From contig JAHFCH010000023.1 of NCBI GenBank assembly GCA_023249635.1, positions 1-46,051 of the forward strand: a stretch of 46,051 nt of DNA, in the 5' to 3' direction. The position numbers were made by a program, and so were the translations under genes. The notes beneath the pieces are model-generated. The model saw nothing but the letters and a program-made list of their open reading frames with translations, was not told the DNA's origin and did not search any database. Positions 30,430 to 38,570 of the stretch are shown here, one piece after another. The DNA is from Fibrobacterota bacterium (GTDB lineage: Bacteria; Fibrobacterota; Fibrobacteria; UBA11236). Positions within the stretch are counted from its first letter, which is position 1; the number at the start of each line of letters is the position of its first letter.

Positions 30430-30867
30430 ATGAAGGTCCTGGTATTCGTCAAAGCCACCAAGAATTCCGAAGCCGGCCTGATGCCCAGCGAGAAACTGAT
30501 GACGGACATGGGAAAATTCAACGAAGAGCTGGTGAAGGCCGGGATCATGCAGGCGGGAGAAGGTTTGCATCCTTCCTCCAAGGGCAAGCGTGTCCGCATT
30601 TCCACGGGCGGAAGCCGCATCGTGGTCGACGGTCCCTTCACGGAAACCAAGGAGCTGGTTGCGGGCTTCTGGATTTGGAAAGTGAAGTCGATGGAAGAAG
30701 CCGTGGAATGGGCCCGCCGTTGCCCGGACCCGATGCCCGGCGAGGATGGCGAGCTGGAACTCCGCCCCGCCTTCGAGATGGAGGATTTCGGCGAAGCCTT
30801 CACGCCCGAGTTGCGCGCCCACGATGAGAAGTTGCGCGCCGAAGTCGAGCGTCAGCAGAAGAAGTAG
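30430..30867 (+). CDS. YCII-related (DGPF) domain protein
   Basis: A 145-aa protein of the PF03795 family, with the hallmark VVDGPFTETKE at residues 65-75 and a ferredoxin-like alpha/beta fold pattern. AAGGAG precedes the ATG at optimal distance. Family knowledge: members include DGPF proteins often paired with extracytoplasmic-function sigma factors, but none is adjacent. The C-terminal 30 residues are a charged helix (HDEKLRAEVERQQKK). It ends four bases from the convergent methyltransferase gene. Function unknown. Confidence 0.82.
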   Translation: MKVLVFVKATKNSEAGLMPSEKLMTDMGKFNEELVKAGIMQAGEGLHPSSKGKRVRISTGGSRIVVDGPFTETKELVAGFWIWKVKSMEEAVEWARRCPDPMPGEDGELELRPAFEMEDFGEAFTPELRAHDEKLRAEVERQQKK

Positions 30868-30871
30868 CCGG

Positions 30872-31687
30872 TTACTCCGCCGTGAAAGCGCCGAAGTCCG
30901 GCTTGTGCCGGTGGCCCTTGGTGAGGAAGGCCTTGTTGCGCTCGTAATGGTTCTCGGCGCTGTAAGGCGTCAGGAATTTATCCTTCACGAGATCTTCGCG
31001 CACGAAGAACGCGTTCACGCCGGTATAATCGCAACCCACCAGCTTATAGCCCTTTTGCGCGCCCAGCAGTTCCAGCGACTTGAGGCTGGAGTTGTAGTAG
31101 ACCGAACCGTTCCAGATATGGTTGGGATTGTACTTCATGATCCAGCGCGTGGGCGGGCGGAAGATGCCGTTGAATTCCATGCATACCGCGCGCGGCCGGA
31201 AATTCTTGATGGCCTTCCAGATCCAGTAATCGTTGCCGTCGAGATCGATGGAGAGGAAATCCGGCTCGGCGGGGACTCCGCCTTCCGTGAACAGGCTTTC
31301 CACGTTCTCGGCGTTTATGAAGGCCCGCTGGAATTTCAGCCGGCCGTCGGAAATCAGGGACGCGAACTTGTCCTGGATCAGCTCCGCGTTCTCTTTGCTG
31401 CCGTCCATCCATAGACCTTGCCAGCCGTTCACCAGTAGCAAAGCGCTGTTGTTCTCCAGCCCGTTACCGCAGCCGAATTCCACGAAGCGTTTGTTCGTGG
31501 TGCCGATGCGGTTGAAGATCTCCTCGATGATGCCGTCTTCGCCGTGCTGCGAGAACGTCTGGAACTCGGAGCCGTTGAGGCGGAGGGGATCTTGATACCG
31601 GGGATGCTGGCGCAGGTTGCGCTCGAGGTATTCCTCGATGGCAACGTCGCGCATGTTCTTGAGATGGTGGAGTACGCGTCCTAGCAT
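30872..31687 (-). CDS. SAM-dependent methyltransferase, FkbM-like
   Basis: A 271-aa protein from ATG 31687; the frame continues far upstream only as a shadow of the flippase gene. FSQHGEDG lies at 45-52, the SAM site FVEFGCGNGLENN at 68-80 and the FkbM-like acidic strand FLSIDLDGNDYWIWKAI at 144-160, followed by AVCMEFNG. Such proteins occur in capsule and O-antigen loci and probably O-methylate a sugar. It starts 5 nt after the stop of the flippase gene, so it is the third gene of an Omp85-flippase-methyltransferase operon. Confidence 0.82.
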   Translation of the reverse strand: MLGRVLHHLKNMRDVAIEEYLERNLRQHPRYQDPLRLNGSEFQTFSQHGEDGIIEEIFNRIGTTNKRFVEFGCGNGLENNSALLLVNGWQGLWMDGSKENAELIQDKFASLISDGRLKFQRAFINAENVESLFTEGGVPAEPDFLSIDLDGNDYWIWKAIKNFRPRAVCMEFNGIFRPPTRWIMKYNPNHIWNGSVYYNSSLKSLELLGAQKGYKLVGCDYTGVNAFFVREDLVKDKFLTPYSAENHYERNKAFLTKGHRHKPDFGAFTAE

Positions 31688-31692
31688 GCTGG

Positions 31693-33189
31693 CTAAGGTA
31701 GCAAACTCGCGGCCCGGGCGCGTCGGCGGGCCAACCAGGCATTGCCGAACAGGGCCCATAGCACGCCCGCATAGGGCAGTACGAAGACCATGAACCAGGC
31801 GCCCCGCGAGATCAGGGAATCGACGCCGAAGCGGCGCCATAGCCAATAGGACAAGCCGGTGAGCGCGACCCCGGCCGCGAAATTGACGAAGACGGCGGCC
31901 CGCAGGGGTACCAGGCGGATGAGGTAGATGGTCTCGCCGAACCAGACCAGGTTGGTGAGCAGGATGGATAGCGATGTGCCGAGCGCGGCGCCGGCAATGC
32001 CGTAGCGGGGCACCAGGATGGGCGTGAACAAAAGGGCCAGCGCGAGGCAAATGAGATCGTTGACCATGGCCCAACGGCTCTTGCCCATGCCCAGCACCAC
32101 CACGCCGGATAGCCCCAGGTAGCCGATGATGATTAGGGTGAACGCGAAAATGAGCAGGGCCGGGCCGCCCTGCGCGTACTCGGGGCCGGAGAGCGCCAAG
32201 AGCGGTTGCGCGAAGAACGCCAGGAAGGCGAAGATGGGGATCTGCAAGGCCAGCGTGGTCTGTCCCGCGTGCAGGTAGGCGTCGCGGATATTCACGCTGT
32301 CGGCGCCGCGCTTGAGCTGCGCGATCACGGCCAACAGGATGTTGTCGAACGCCTGCCGGATGGTCTTGATGGAATTGGCGATGGAGAGCGCCAATCCGTA
32401 GATGCCGATGGCCTTGGGCGGCAGGAACAGGGCCAGGCACCAGATGTCCACGCGTTGCTGCAGCGAAAGCAGCACGTCGCGCGCGCCCATGGGCCAGGAG
32501 TAATGCCAGAGCACGGCCACGGCCTTTTCGGTATGCTCGGTCTCGGGACGCAAGGCGAGTTCGCGTTTCAGCGGCGCGGACAGCAGGCCGCTGGCGATCC
32601 ATCCCAGGATGCTGCCCATCAGGTAGAAGCCTGCCAGCATACGCACCTCATGCGAGAGGAAGGCCAGGGCGCAGGGCAGACCCAGGTAACACGCGGGGTA
32701 CAGGATGCCGCGCACCAGCACCTCGTGCTCCATTTTCTTGAAAGCCATGGACACGCCGAGATTGAGGTTGGTGAGCATGATGAAGGGGACGGCCGCCGCC
32801 ATCAACGCCAGGGATACCGGCTCGGTGAGCCCGCCGGGGGAGGGCTTGCCGAACCCGAGCAGGCGGTAGCCGGCGAACCCCAGCAATAGGCCAGCGCCGA
32901 TGAGGAACATGCGCTTGCGGATCCAGGTGAAGAAATGCGGCGGCGGGCGCGAACCATGGTGCCGCGACAGATACCAGATGACGCCCTTATCGAGACCGGC
33001 GCAGGCCAAGCGCATCACCGGCAGGAAGAGGGTGTTGAGGAAGATGTACTGACCCCACACGTGCACGCCGTAAAGGCGGGCGGCGAGCAGGGTGAGCAGG
33101 AACTCGGCGAGCTTGAAGCCGTTGCCGGCGAAGGAGATGGCGGCGCCGCGATTGATGTCGCGGCGGATGGTGTCTTTTTGTTCCGCCAT
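31693..33189 (-). CDS. Wzx-type lipid-linked oligosaccharide flippase (MOP superfamily)
   Basis: A 498-aa polytopic protein with about 12-14 hydrophobic segments. The N-terminus INRGAAISFAGNGFKLAEFLLTLLAARLYGVHVWGQY-like layout (residues 10-45) and IGIYGLALSIANSIKTIRQAFDNIL in the middle match RfbX/Wzx polysaccharide exporters. The ATG 33189 was chosen since upstream residues are Pro/Arg-rich and overlap the Omp85 gene. It should move lipid-linked glycan units across the inner membrane. It lies 14 nt after an Omp85-type barrel gene and 5 nt before a methyltransferase gene, a compact operon. Confidence 0.85.
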   Translation of the reverse strand: MAEQKDTIRRDINRGAAISFAGNGFKLAEFLLTLLAARLYGVHVWGQYIFLNTLFLPVMRLACAGLDKGVIWYLSRHHGSRPPPHFFTWIRKRMFLIGAGLLLGFAGYRLLGFGKPSPGGLTEPVSLALMAAAVPFIMLTNLNLGVSMAFKKMEHEVLVRGILYPACYLGLPCALAFLSHEVRMLAGFYLMGSILGWIASGLLSAPLKRELALRPETEHTEKAVAVLWHYSWPMGARDVLLSLQQRVDIWCLALFLPPKAIGIYGLALSIANSIKTIRQAFDNILLAVIAQLKRGADSVNIRDAYLHAGQTTLALQIPIFAFLAFFAQPLLALSGPEYAQGGPALLIFAFTLIIIGYLGLSGVVVLGMGKSRWAMVNDLICLALALLFTPILVPRYGIAGAALGTSLSILLTNLVWFGETIYLIRLVPLRAAVFVNFAAGVALTGLSYWLWRRFGVDSLISRGAWFMVFVLPYAGVLWALFGNAWLARRRARAASLLP

Positions 33190-33203
33190 GGGCGGGATAT
33201 AAA

Positions 33204-34685
33204 CTAATAAGGTTCGTCGACGGACATGTTCAGCTGGATGCCGTGCAATCCGTGGAAACCCAGCTGCAAGCGGAACAGGTAGATGTCCGGGCGGCGGACG
33301 CGGATACCGAAGCCCCACGAGTTCTTGAGATTGTCCAGGTAATCGATCTTGTCCCAGGAACGGCCGTAGAAACCGTATTCGTCGAACATGACCCCGTCCA
33401 CCAGGCGCATGATGGGGAAGCGGTATTCCGCGCCGGCCGAGAGCACGGTGTAATCGCGGAAGCGGCTGCCGCTGTACCCGCGCATGGGCGTATCGTTGCC
33501 CAGGGTCTGCAGGCCGTATACGGGCATGTGGTTGCCGGCCAGTTCGTATACCTGGGACGAATACAGATGGGTGACGAACACCTTGCGGTTGAACAGTTCC
33601 TTCTTGAGATTCTCGATCTCCATCTTCTGGAGCACTTTTTTCACCGAAAGCGGTCCTGACTTGCGCTCCTCCTCCCCGGAGATCTCGTAGCGTTCCTTCC
33701 CCAGCTTGAAGTAGTTGGTCAACTCGGCTTCCCAGCCGTGGAAGTCATGGTGGTCCGTGGTAAAGTGGTAGTGGTAGGTGGCGCCGAAGTCGCTGCCGGC
33801 CAGCACTATGTTCTGGTTGTTGCGGGTATCCCGACCGATGCCTACGGCGATGATGCGATCTTGCCACTTGTTCGCGCCCGTGGAATCGGCCAGGCCGCGC
33901 ATGCGGGTGTCGAATACGCCGGAGTCGTTCTTGAAGAAGTCGCTGCGCAGCGCGAATTGCTGCACCGGCGGCAGGCCGAAATGATTGTCGCGGAAAACGA
34001 AGGTCCCCTTCATCGCCACCTTTTCGAAAAGAACGTGGGAAAGCGACCCCGAAAAGGTGTTGGTGGTATCGGCATAGTACCAGAACACGGGGGTTCCCGG
34101 CTGGTTCGCGGAGGTGTTTTTCACGCGGGTCAACGCCATCAGGATCCTGGAGTTAAAACCGGTGCCGAGGATATCCTCCGCGGTCATGTAGCTGCGGAAT
34201 TTCCAGTCCCCGTTCACGTAGAGCACGCCCTGGGCCACGCCCCGTTCGGTATTACGGCCGAACAGGGATTGGTTGCGCAAGGTAAGACCCGTGGACGAAC
34301 CGGTGCCCGGCGCCAGGTTCATGGTGGGGTAGAGCATGATCTTGTCCTTCTCGCCGAAACTGATCAGCTTAAGGGTGCGATCGATGACGTTCTCGTTGAG
34401 CATGTACCGCAGCGGGGGTTTGCTGGGATACAAGGCCAGCTTCACCACCGGCATCAGGACCACTTCGATTGGCAGGGTGATCATTTGCAGGATGGGGTAG
34501 GAAACGTATTCGTAGAAGGTCTTGCCGGGAACGCTGTCGGCCGCGGCAGTCGAAGCGTCCAGGCTGTCGGTTACGGCGGCGCTGTCGCGGGTGGCGGCCG
34601 AATCGAGCACGGGCGCGGAGTCCGGCGCTTTGGCGGCGATGGCGATCGCCGACAGTGCGGACAGGAGGAGCATGCGTGGAAGCAT
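33204..34685 (-). CDS. Omp85-superfamily outer-membrane barrel without evident POTRA domains
   Basis: A 493-aa protein from ATG 34685 with signal peptide MLPRMLLLSALSAIAIAA. A Ser/Ala/Asp-rich linker (about 20-50) leads to a membrane-proximal stretch (YEYVSYPILQMITLPIEVVLMP) and then a barrel. The Omp85 loop-6 motif appears as MRGYSGSRFRD near residue 400, followed by AEYRFPI, and the chain ends with strands GFGIRVRRPDIYLFRLQLGFHGL. I see no room for typical POTRA repeats. Family knowledge: Omp85 proteins insert barrels or move polypeptides or other cargo across the outer membrane. It is first in an operon with a flippase. Confidence 0.78.
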   Translation of the reverse strand: MLPRMLLLSALSAIAIAAKAPDSAPVLDSAATRDSAAVTDSLDASTAAADSVPGKTFYEYVSYPILQMITLPIEVVLMPVVKLALYPSKPPLRYMLNENVIDRTLKLISFGEKDKIMLYPTMNLAPGTGSSTGLTLRNQSLFGRNTERGVAQGVLYVNGDWKFRSYMTAEDILGTGFNSRILMALTRVKNTSANQPGTPVFWYYADTTNTFSGSLSHVLFEKVAMKGTFVFRDNHFGLPPVQQFALRSDFFKNDSGVFDTRMRGLADSTGANKWQDRIIAVGIGRDTRNNQNIVLAGSDFGATYHYHFTTDHHDFHGWEAELTNYFKLGKERYEISGEEERKSGPLSVKKVLQKMEIENLKKELFNRKVFVTHLYSSQVYELAGNHMPVYGLQTLGNDTPMRGYSGSRFRDYTVLSAGAEYRFPIMRLVDGVMFDEYGFYGRSWDKIDYLDNLKNSWGFGIRVRRPDIYLFRLQLGFHGLHGIQLNMSVDEPY

Positions 34686-34715
34686 CCAGGACCCTTCGCG
34701 AACCATTGAAATCAA

Positions 34716-34765
34716 ATGCGCGGTACGACGCGCATAAAATACCTCAAAACTTCGCGTAATTCCAA
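34716..34765 (-). promoter_or_regulatory. Promoter/operator candidate of the Omp85-flippase operon
   Basis: On the minus strand TTGGAA (34760-34765), an 18-nt spacer, then TATTTT (34736-34741). The predicted start falls in ATGCGC-N8-GCGCAT (34716-34735), a perfect inverted repeat that could bind a repressor. The leader to ATG 34685 is about 40 nt. Confidence 0.4.
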
Positions 34766-34871: not shown

Positions 34872-35465
34872 TCAGAAGGTGATGAAGGGAAAAACGGCCT
34901 TGGCGAGCGAAAATGCGCAAATACCCAGCAAACCGCCGCCCAGGATATCGCTCAGGTAATGCACGCCGAACAGTACCCGCAAGGTACCAAGCAGCAACGG
35001 GAAGAAAACCGCGGGAACCAGCAGCCGGGGGAAATGCAGCGTCAGGACCAGGGACACCGCGAGATTGTTCATGGTATGCCCGGACGGAAAGCTGTACTTA
35101 TCCAGCGGCGGGACCATGGGGGTAACATCGAGTCCGCTATCGTATGGCCGCAATCGCTTCGCGATGAATTTGACGGGCAGGTAGATGCAGAGGCTGACAG
35201 CAATGGCCAGGGCGCATTGCAGCACCACGGTTTCCACTTGCGCGAAGGGCAGCGCGAACCAGAGCGCGACGGCGATGATTCCCCAGATCCATCCGTCGCC
35301 CACGCGCACCAGCAGGATCAACGGCCATGCGATCGCTTTGGGAAGGGGAAAGGCCGCCAGCAGGCGGAAGAATGCGACATCAATCGCGAGTATGCGGGCA
35401 CCCAGGGCGCGCCAGCCGACTTGCAACCGTTCGCGGCCTGTGCTTTCCAATTCAGTAGCGTCCAT
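34872..35465 (-). CDS. PAP2-family lipid phosphatase
   Basis: A 197-aa membrane phosphatase. All three PAP2 motifs are visible: K-x6-RP as KFIAKRLRP (99-107), PSGH at 127-130, and R163-x5-H169-x3-D173, where the usual Ser before the Arg is Leu. Five or six hydrophobic segments place it in the inner membrane with the active site facing the periplasm. Likely substrates are undecaprenyl pyrophosphate or phosphatidylglycerol phosphate; the location among glycan genes favours lipid-carrier recycling, by inference. ATG 35465 or GTG 35474 may start it. Confidence 0.88.
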   Translation of the reverse strand: MDATELESTGRERLQVGWRALGARILAIDVAFFRLLAAFPLPKAIAWPLILLVRVGDGWIWGIIAVALWFALPFAQVETVVLQCALAIAVSLCIYLPVKFIAKRLRPYDSGLDVTPMVPPLDKYSFPSGHTMNNLAVSLVLTLHFPRLLVPAVFFPLLLGTLRVLFGVHYLSDILGGGLLGICAFSLAKAVFPFITF

Positions 35466-35493
35466 GGGTTTCACGATCGGAAAAGATAAATAG

Positions 35494-36603
35494 TTAGACC
35501 AGCGAAGCCAGGATCCGTTCCGCGCAAGTTTCCCAAGTGAAGCTTTTTTGGATACGCTCCCGGGCCTTGCGGCCCATGGCTTTCCCTCTTTCCGGGTCCA
35601 GTAAAAGCGCGATCAGGGCTTTTTCCAGTTGCAGCTGCGATTCCGGATCGATCAGCAGGCCGGTCACGCCGTCGGCGACGGCATCGGGTACGCCGCCGGT
35701 TCGGCCGCCCACCACGGGTACTTCGCAGGCCCCCGCCTCCAAATACACAATTCCGAAGCCTTCCACGTCCTTGGCGGAAGCCAGGCTGGGCAAGGCGAAA
35801 ACGCTGCCGAGGGAATAATGCGCGGCCAATTCCGCATCGCCAATGCGACCCGGGAACAGCACGGCATCGCCGAGGGAGAGTTCGCGCGCGCGCGCCATCA
35901 GGGCATCGCGTTCCGGTCCCGTGCCGCCCAACAACAGACGCGTCCTAGGGATCGCGCGGCGCACCGCCGGCATGGCTTCCACCAGGCGGCGCAGGTTCTT
36001 GCGCGCCACCATGCGCCCGATGGAAACGATTACGGGCGCGTCCCCGAGGCCGTAACGCGCGCGGAGGAAAGCGGAATCCACCGGACGGAAGGCTTCCGGG
36101 TCCACGCCGGGATGGATCAGCTGCAAGGGACAGGCAGGATGGGCGCGTTCGCGGGTCAGGCGCATCACTTCGTTGCTGTTCGGGAACGCGGCGTGCAAGC
36201 GCGCGAAGGCTTTGCGCATCATCCAGGGACCCAAGGGCCCGAACACGGAAGTGAGCAGCTCACGGCCATGAATCAGGGCGAACTCCTTGCGCTTACCGCG
36301 CGGAACCCGTATGGCTCCTGCGGCCCCTTGCCATTGGGCGTAGAGGATATGCGTGATGGAGGGGCGCTCCTTAAGGTAACCGGGAAGGTACGTCAGCAGC
36401 CGCGACCACAGGAAGGAAGAGGCGACGTCGAGACGCACGCATTCGCGGAGGCCGGGCAGGGGATTGGCATCGGTCCGCTTGCCGGGGCACACCACGCGTA
36501 CCGTGTGGCCGCGGGCGAGAAAACGGCGCGCCAGTTCCAAGACGTAGGTCTGGATGCCGCCCTGCTCGGGCGGAAAATCCTGGGTGACGATGAGGATGTC
36601 CAT
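35494..36603 (-). CDS. GT4-family glycosyltransferase
   Basis: A 369-aa GT-B enzyme from ATG 36603. The N-terminal TQDFPPEQGGIQTYVLELAR is the acceptor loop; the donor half has SIGRMVARKNLRRLVEAM near 190-207 and DVEGFGIVYLEAGAC near 272-286, then GGVPDAVADGVTGLLIDP. It is a PimB-like paralogue of the enzyme at 29223-30359. It begins 8 nt after the LtaS-like gene ends, so the two are probably translated from one mRNA. Donor and acceptor unknown. Confidence 0.88.
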   Translation of the reverse strand: MDILIVTQDFPPEQGGIQTYVLELARRFLARGHTVRVVCPGKRTDANPLPGLRECVRLDVASSFLWSRLLTYLPGYLKERPSITHILYAQWQGAAGAIRVPRGKRKEFALIHGRELLTSVFGPLGPWMMRKAFARLHAAFPNSNEVMRLTRERAHPACPLQLIHPGVDPEAFRPVDSAFLRARYGLGDAPVIVSIGRMVARKNLRRLVEAMPAVRRAIPRTRLLLGGTGPERDALMARARELSLGDAVLFPGRIGDAELAAHYSLGSVFALPSLASAKDVEGFGIVYLEAGACEVPVVGGRTGGVPDAVADGVTGLLIDPESQLQLEKALIALLLDPERGKAMGRKARERIQKSFTWETCAERILASLV

Positions 36604-36611
36604 GGTAGCCT

Positions 36612-38570
36612 TCAACGGTTAGGCACCGGGGGCAGCAGCGCGTCGCGATCGAGCACGCGCCCGTAGGCCCGCGCGATATCGCGGTAGCGATCCGGATCCA
36701 GGCCCGCGGGAACCTCACGGGAGAGTACGGCGGTATTGCCTTCCAGCAGCGCATAGTTGCGCTTGTTATGCTTGTCGAGATCCCAATGCATCACCCCATC
36801 GCCATCCATCTGGAACAAGGTGCGGCTGCCTTCGGAGATCAAAGCGAGATGCCCGTAACGCATGCAGAGGATGTCGCGCCGGGCCGGTTCCAGCAGGCTG
36901 CGGCCGATGAAATGGTTGGGAAAGCGCGCGTCCAGCAGCTTGAACAGGGTGGGGGCGATGTCGATTTGGGCCACGGTCTCTTCGCGCACGCCGCGATCCT
37001 TGAGGCCCGGCCAGCCGCCCCAGAAGGCCAGGTTGGTCCAGGTGTGCCCGGGGTTGAATTCGCCCACGGCCTCGGTATTGCGCATCTGCCAGGCCGTGTA
37101 GTCGGAATGATCGCCCACCATGATGACCAGGGTGCGATCGAAATCGGGGCGGGATTTCAGCTTGCGGAACAGGCGCAGGATCTGGGTTTCGGTATACCCG
37201 ATGGCCTGATCGTAGGCTTCATCGGCGTTCTTGGCCTTGGGATAACCGGCGTCGGCGGGTACGTCGAAAGGCGGGTGCATGGTGGTGGTCCATACCGCCT
37301 CCATATAGGGCCGGTCGGTAGGCAGGGTGTCGATGATGGACATGAGCCTATCCATCAAGGGCCCGTCATGGGTGCGCGCGGGATCGTATTCGTAACGGTC
37401 GTACCATTTACGCAGCCAAGGGGTGAAATTGTCGAAGGAGGGATCGTAGCCGAAAAGGATCTCGGAGCGGTAGCCCAGCAGGCGCAGGCCTTCGGGAAGC
37501 GAGCGGGTGCGGATATGCGTGTAATCGCTGAGGAAGGTGCGGCGGAAATGCGACCATAGCCCCAAGTGGATGCCGATGCCGCCTTCGACGGAAGGGAAGC
37601 CGTTGGAATGCGTATAAGGGAAGACCAGGCCCTCCCCTTTGAGCACGCTGTCGAGATGGGGAGTGGCCGAGGGCATGGTGGAATCCTCAGCCAACCCGGT
37701 TTTCCAACCGCGCAGGGTTTCCACGATGAGCAGAATGATGTTGGGCCGCTGGGAGAGCGGCAGACGCTGGAATTCCTCCGGCGAGAGGCGGCCGAGGTTG
37801 TTGGAATCGAGCAACGGGTATTCCGGAATGGTTTCCAACGCATGCTCCGCGGGCTTGCCCGTGCGCGTCATGGCGATGAGATCGGAATACGCCCGCTTGG
37901 GCCGCTTCGGGGCCTCGTCATCGACGAAGCCCTTCCAGGCATCGGCCACCATGCCCCAGGGGGCCGGGCGGATGCGGCGCCAGCGCTTGTCGGACCAATG
38001 GAACCAGAAGGGGAAACTGATGAGGCCCGCGCACAAGGCCAGGCTGACGGGAGCGGCGGCGGTGCCCAGGGTACCATAGCGGTTACGTTCCAGCCAGATG
38101 CGCCAGGCGGGCCATATAGGCGCCAGCAGGATGATCCCGGCGATGAGGAAATGCTGCCAGTCCGATTTGACCACGCGGCTCCACATGAAGGCGTCCCGGA
38201 ACCCGAAATACGTGCAGAGGAAGGAGAAGTTGATGTGTTCCCCCATCCAGCGGACGACCTCGTTGTCGATTTGGCAGAACCCGATGTACAGGCAGCCCAG
38301 GATCAGGAGTTTGCCGCGGGCCATGCCGGTGAGCCGTATGCGCGCGGTGGCGGAGAGGGGCAGACGCGTCAAAGCCGATTCGCAGGCGGCGAAAAGCAGG
38401 CATAACGCGAGAAGGAGGCCCAGTTCGAAGAGCGCGGCATTGGGGAGGAAGCGCCAGGGATTGAGCACCACGGGCTCGCCGTACGGGTTGTTACCCATGA
38501 AGTGGAGGGTGAGCGACAAGGCGCGCAAGCCGCCGAAGAGCAGGAACGCGCGCAGGTACAAGGTATTCAT
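36612..38570 (-). CDS. LtaS-like membrane phosphotransferase/sulfatase (alkaline phosphatase superfamily)
   Basis: A 652-aa protein from ATG 38570. Five hydrophobic helices occupy residues 1-195, then an extracytoplasmic domain starts with RPNIILLIVETLRGW (275-289), where Thr285 is the expected nucleophile. GFPSVEGG near 324-331, MHPPFDVP and VGDHSDYTAW are metal- and substrate-site motifs of the LtaS/phosphoethanolamine-transferase group. Family knowledge: such enzymes move phosphoglycerol or phosphoethanolamine from phospholipid to glycans outside the membrane. In a Gram-negative context it likely decorates a periplasmic glycan. The GT4 gene follows immediately. Confidence 0.85.
   Translation of the reverse strand: MNTLYLRAFLLFGGLRALSLTLHFMGNNPYGEPVVLNPWRFLPNAALFELGLLLALCLLFAACESALTRLPLSATARIRLTGMARGKLLILGCLYIGFCQIDNEVVRWMGEHINFSFLCTYFGFRDAFMWSRVVKSDWQHFLIAGIILLAPIWPAWRIWLERNRYGTLGTAAAPVSLALCAGLISFPFWFHWSDKRWRRIRPAPWGMVADAWKGFVDDEAPKRPKRAYSDLIAMTRTGKPAEHALETIPEYPLLDSNNLGRLSPEEFQRLPLSQRPNIILLIVETLRGWKTGLAEDSTMPSATPHLDSVLKGEGLVFPYTHSNGFPSVEGGIGIHLGLWSHFRRTFLSDYTHIRTRSLPEGLRLLGYRSEILFGYDPSFDNFTPWLRKWYDRYEYDPARTHDGPLMDRLMSIIDTLPTDRPYMEAVWTTTMHPPFDVPADAGYPKAKNADEAYDQAIGYTETQILRLFRKLKSRPDFDRTLVIMVGDHSDYTAWQMRNTEAVGEFNPGHTWTNLAFWGGWPGLKDRGVREETVAQIDIAPTLFKLLDARFPNHFIGRSLLEPARRDILCMRYGHLALISEGSRTLFQMDGDGVMHWDLDKHNKRNYALLEGNTAVLSREVPAGLDPDRYRDIARAYGRVLDRDALLPPVPNR

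Follow-up and report, generated by a model that had tools for sequence, protein, structure and literature searches.

Analysis of a 46,051-nt stretch of DNA from a Fibrobacterota bacterium (the window) reveals a predicted outer-membrane barrel of the Omp85 superfamily that lacks POTRA domains. Judging from the genomes compared, it belongs to a family that occurs almost throughout the class Fibrobacteria, essentially as a single copy. Genes of this family recur beside putative inner-membrane exporters of lipids or glycolipids, and the dedicated Omp85-Wzx operon proposed in an earlier note on this DNA is too narrow a description. We tentatively prefer the reading that the barrel may perform an outer-membrane step for lipid-linked material. 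The barrel, flippase and methyltransferase genes, for which the earlier note gave no strand, lie on the minus strand, as do the other features listed here:

30872-31687, minus strand: putative SAM-dependent methyltransferase (271 aa), accompanying flippase allele A.
31693-33189, minus strand: Wzx-type flippase, allele A (498 aa), about 12 predicted hydrophobic segments.
33204-34685, minus strand: POTRA-less Omp85-superfamily barrel (493 aa), N-terminus signal-peptide-like.
33474-33488, minus strand: PMRGY motif, extracellular loop 6 of the barrel.
33585-33701, minus strand: three-helix insert of the barrel (residues 329-367) between strands 10 and 11, present in both models.
34431-34517, minus strand: conserved hydrophobic N-terminal helix of the barrel (residues 57-85), in place of POTRA; low model confidence.
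34716-34735, minus strand: inverted repeat ATGCGCG-TCGTAC-CGCGCAT, not conserved in relatives.
34736-34765, minus strand: promoter-like element TTGGAA-18-TATTTT, spacing kept in six species.
34872-35474, minus strand: PAP2 phosphatase, undecaprenyl-diphosphatase-like, part of the conserved locus backbone.
35494-36615, minus strand: GT4 glycosyltransferase, whose relatives adjoin the barrel in genus g2 and family f4.
36612-38570, minus strand: membrane-anchored sulfatase-fold enzyme, LtaS/phosphoglycerol-transferase-like.

The open reading frames of the barrel, flippase and methyltransferase are intact and separated by exactly 14 and 5 nt, as previously noted. This unit probably stops at the methyltransferase gene, because the next open reading frame, which ends at 30867, is on the opposite strand. 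That small plus-strand frame (30430-30867) contains a DGPF motif, is YCII-like by eye and converges on the methyltransferase gene with a 4-nt gap.

The assignment of the barrel to the Omp85 superfamily is borne out by family-level profile matches, by 16 strands in two predicted structures and by structural searches. The window barrel alone matched no Pfam family and, with phmmer, nothing in the PDB; however, PF01103 (Omp85) is matched by 16 of 22 members of the barrel family (best 5.9e-12), and a profile of this family reached BamA in the PDB (E about 0.003). An AlphaFold model built on a 22-sequence alignment (mean pLDDT 75) forms a barrel of 16 strands from residue 116 to residue 488. The second model, of a Fibrobacteraceae homologue and from an alignment largely overlapping with the first, has the same plan. 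Foldseek retrieved BamA/TamA with the barrel models at 5e-11 to 4e-13, and for the window barrel also chains of the TOC and SAM complexes. The MRGY motif had been placed in loop 6, and PMRGY is indeed found between strands 11 and 12, i.e. in L6. P400, R402 and Y404 are invariant in the family alignment, and the motif conforms to the (V/M)RG(F/Y) pattern of Omp85 loop 6.

Neither predicted structure contains a POTRA domain and no member of the family matches a POTRA profile in Pfam, in agreement with the earlier note. The approximately 95 residues between signal peptide and barrel are disordered or helical only, with no POTRA-like strand pattern. A hydropathy scan gave a single stretch above threshold (61-79 in the scan's own numbering), located within the N-terminal helix that both models place here with pLDDT around 50. 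The three-helix insert, at turn 5, is predicted to face the periplasm by strand parity from the position of L6. In both models the protein is a barrel without N-terminal domain, the hallmark of the noNterm Omp85 subfamily, devoid of POTRA, described by Heinz and Lithgow in 2014 (PMC4104836). The Fibrobacteria barrel departs from that description by its hydrophobic helix and turn-5 insert and by being found full-length in Fibrobacteria only. With BamA and TamA it shares the 16-stranded Omp85 barrel and the L6 motif, but these proteins have POTRA domains, and the tamB gene adjacent to tamA has no counterpart next to the barrel.

The barrel gene is single copy in its own genome, and matches were found in all 61 relatives. 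In a sample of 151 genomes of the phylum, full-length barrels occur in the class Fibrobacteria, and outside the class the only matches are partial and Omp85-type; six members of the class gave no barrel match, most of them incomplete genomes. A scan of GTDB genomes, with patterns derived from the barrel family itself and therefore blind to very distant kin, yielded 75 barrel loci, almost all of them under the names Fibrobacter, Fibrobacteres or Fibrobacteria. A long BamA (contig C72) and an Omp85 beside TamB (contig C113) are encoded elsewhere in the genome, and the relatives have a long BamA and LptD_2 and, usually, an Omp85 adjoining TamB. The barrel is thus not simply BamA, TamA or LptD. 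The LptD_2 profile (PF19838) was matched by other genes in eight of nine genomes and never by the barrel, which rules out the barrel as an LptD substitute; in the incomplete assembly of its own genome no LptD_2 was matched, and the LptD barrel profile PF04453 gave no match. Likewise, a TamA identity is ruled out, as TamB adjoins another Omp85. On other contigs of G000 and its relatives, each genome encodes several more Omp85 proteins in open frames of about 370-460 aa, an expansion in this group of short barrels that are probably POTRA-poor as well. In the proteome literature on Fibrobacter, the OMP85/BamA entry FSU_2654 was the sole find, and no link between it and the barrel was established.

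The barrel could instead serve protein assembly, by inserting or translocating certain proteins of the outer membrane or cell surface, perhaps glycoproteins that the adjacent glycan genes modify. We regard this as possible though doubtful, close behind the lipid step, since the Omp85 proteins studied act on proteins and the POTRA-less subclass has been suggested to do likewise. Besides this general function, the structure is nearest to BamA/TamA and the gene is near-universal and single copy. The conservative proposal for the noNterm subfamily is also a protein role, backed by Sam50 working without its POTRA (PMC4104836). However, BamA and TamA-TamB are already encoded, and no gene for a protein substrate recurs beside the barrel, whereas glycan and lipid exporters do.

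In the window the exporter is a Wzx-type flippase, an identity that held up: it matches Polysacc_synt_3 (PF13440; 3.7e-9, 36.7 bits against a cut-off of 23), and weakly the NCBIfam WZX_like family NF041503 (30.6 bits against a cut-off of 300). The FkbM-like label given to the methyltransferase must be dropped, as no FkbM-family match was found and the only match is a weak one to Methyltransf_23 (0.0048). Searches of the PDB by phmmer with both proteins returned nothing informative. Each of the 13 genomes of families f1, f2 and f4 proved, in the suggested gene-neighbourhood check, to have a flippase near the barrel; as matched, the best hit lies 18 nt to 6 kb away, in varied orders and orientations. 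Such proximity would arise by chance with a probability of 0.003-0.04 per genome, the genomes being related and so not independent. The recurrence of the Omp85-Wzx pair therefore stands, yet the partnership is not a dedicated one, since the flippase is exchanged and, in other genera, lies on either side and on either strand; tight operon-like coupling is confined to this genome and its relative G005. In the three families Wzx is accompanied by GT4 and often also by PAP2 and sulfatase genes, and GT4 relatives adjoin the barrel across f1 and f4. Further neighbours belong to the GT2, GT4, UDP-GlcNAc 2-epimerase, TupA and CDP-glycerol transferase families. The LtaS-like sulfatase is 74-77% identical at the same locus in three species, and a CDP-glycerol transferase gene lies near the barrel in G010 (L057). 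Together these two enzymes hint at a surface polymer decorated with glycerophosphate.

Comparison within the genus revealed what is fixed and what is exchanged at this locus. The backbone of sulfatase, GT4, PAP2 and barrel is conserved at 54-79% identity across species (three species for the sulfatase). The flippase and the next gene occur as two alleles, whose flippases are only about 30% identical. Allele A is present in this genome and in G005 (78% identity for the flippase, 86% for the methyltransferase), and allele B in four species, with flippases 65-82% identical and a glycosyltransferase as the next gene. From these comparisons, Wzx and the next gene form an exchangeable cassette beside a conserved backbone of which the barrel is the last fixed gene. 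This swap looks like the cassette exchange in O-antigen or capsule loci. A strict one-to-one partnership of barrel and Wzx is ruled out by exchange of the flippase together with its neighbour. In G005 (L051:9872-13033, G005:C72), barrel and flippase are joined in one open frame of 1053-1080 aa, with TCG in place of the barrel stop codon, a single additional base that puts the flippase in frame, and CTG as the sole start at the flippase position. A functional fusion is doubted because the C-terminus of the barrel should face the periplasm and the N-terminus of the flippase the cytoplasm. The joined frame more likely reflects an assembly error or an unusual start, either CTG or internal.

The earlier note also described one promoter with an operator-like repeat, of which the promoter part survives. 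The element TTGGAA-18-TATTTT upstream of the barrel has kept its place and its spacing in six species, in a gap whose remaining sequence has diverged; it scores under the threshold of a separate scan. Given this conserved spacing, barrel and flippase in this genome probably share one promoter, which is not the one used by PAP2. Flippases of allele B lie farther from the barrel, starting about 85-100 nt or more beyond it, and may have a promoter of their own. For the inverted repeat (34735-34716), a left arm that matches is present in this genome only, and repeats of that kind are no more frequent than chance predicts (7 found, 7.7 expected). Its lack of conservation and its frequency rule it out as a regulatory site.

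The Fibrobacteraceae barrel loci contain no flippase. Instead, an MMPL-family exporter gene is divergent from the barrel gene, at no more than 600 bp, in 61 of the 64 Fibrobacteraceae-type loci with sufficient upstream DNA. Two of the three exceptions lack MMPL and the third has it 3.3 kb away; in L065 and L069 the MMPL neighbour beside the barrel has been lost. The exporter is HpnN-like (1.5e-56, under the curated cut-off), and an HpnN-like MMPL gene is divergent from the barrel in both f5 genomes as well. Such exporters mark the barrel loci of f3 and f5, and Wzx flippases those of f1, f2 and f4. In L042 (1195-9944) and 60 other Fibrobacteraceae-type loci, MMPL is followed by aminotransferase, FHA-ABC transporter and protein-kinase-like genes. 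An MMPL relative is present in f1 and f2 elsewhere in the genome, unlinked to the barrel; in f2 (L136) the MMPL-aminotransferase-kinase block is retained without the barrel. The barrel tree separates f4, f1+f2 and f3+f5 (midpoint root, with long f4 and f5 branches), and therefore the genomic context changed at least once.

These neighbourhoods could be fortuitous, the barrel being a housekeeping gene that borders a recombining glycan island and whose neighbours carry no functional message. Exchange of the flippase cassette exactly at the barrel boundary would fit, as would the Fibrobacteraceae loci without flippase, the separation of barrel and MMPL in f1/f2 and the more distant flippase of allele B. 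We nevertheless judge such a coincidence unlikely: the barrel-flippase link survives changes of orientation in g1, g2, f2 and f4 and frequently includes a GT4 relative, and 61/64 loci have kept the MMPL link at about 33% identity.

Another candidate role is that of a pore through which a Wzx/Wzy pathway would export polysaccharide, resembling the myxobacterial outer-membrane barrel EpsX; like the barrel here, EpsX is encoded alongside Wzx and glycosyltransferases (PMC9601211). In Myxococcus, EpsX forms with EpsY a composite OPX-barrel translocon, and it is an 18-stranded, AlgE-like barrel working with a short OPX partner. Here the barrel is a 16-stranded Omp85, no OPX gene was found next to it or on the window's contig, and in Fibrobacteraceae it is paired with a lipid exporter. 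An export pore is accordingly very improbable.

The lipid step thus remains our preferred, tentative reading. It draws together the POTRA-less Omp85 fold, the near-universal presence alongside BamA, TamA and LptD_2 encoded elsewhere, the flippase nearby in 13/13 genomes, the fixed backbone with swapped cassette and adjacent GT4 relative, and the divergent HpnN-like MMPL in Fibrobacteraceae-type loci and f5. In this species, GT4 and tailoring enzymes would assemble a lipid-linked glycan in the cytoplasm, Wzx would flip it for transfer to the outer membrane, and the PAP2 enzyme would recycle the carrier. The barrel would receive or insert the product, perhaps via its lateral seam, and the hydrophobic N-terminal helix and turn-5 insert could stand in for POTRA as docking surface. 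Since flippases are swapped while the barrel is fixed, the barrel would recognise a lipid or general carrier rather than a sugar. An undescribed route for a glycolipid, as suggested earlier, remains a reasonable hypothesis. In the boldest version, the POTRA-less Omp85 would handle lipid and not protein throughout the class: at the outer membrane it would accept or insert the lipids and lipid-linked glycans delivered by HpnN-like RND exporters in Fibrobacteraceae and by Wzx pathways in the sister families; this we consider rather unlikely. Against the lipid step, neighbourhood is not function, the Omp85 proteins studied so far act on proteins, and family-level synteny may be inherited and not selected. 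Moreover, Poly_export (Wza-type) genes elsewhere in the genome could carry the glycan out, MMPL and barrel are unlinked in f1/f2 and MMPL was lost at two loci, and the barrel, whose lipid binding is hypothetical, has an N-terminal helix modelled with low confidence.

The exporters of Fibrobacteraceae resemble HpnN and BstA, lipid transporters of the RND (MMPL) type. BstABC employs periplasmic and outer-membrane-associated proteins; in the parts of that report consulted no Omp85 partner is mentioned, unlike the Fibrobacteraceae MMPL beside the barrel (PMC10942540). POTRA-less Omp85 proteins have been known since 2014, and in the titles and abstracts searched, with partial coverage, none was linked to a flippase or an HpnN-like exporter.

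The class Fibrobacteria is related to the gut fibre-digester Fibrobacter, and the context of the barrel hints at delivery of lipids or sugars, not protein, to the cell surface. A single-copy barrel in nearly every species of the class, repeatedly beside exporters, is a well-defined target for deletion. Should the lipid reading be right, the role of Omp85 would extend beyond proteins; if it is wrong, a POTRA-less protein-assembly factor would be defined in fibre-degrading bacteria and their relatives.
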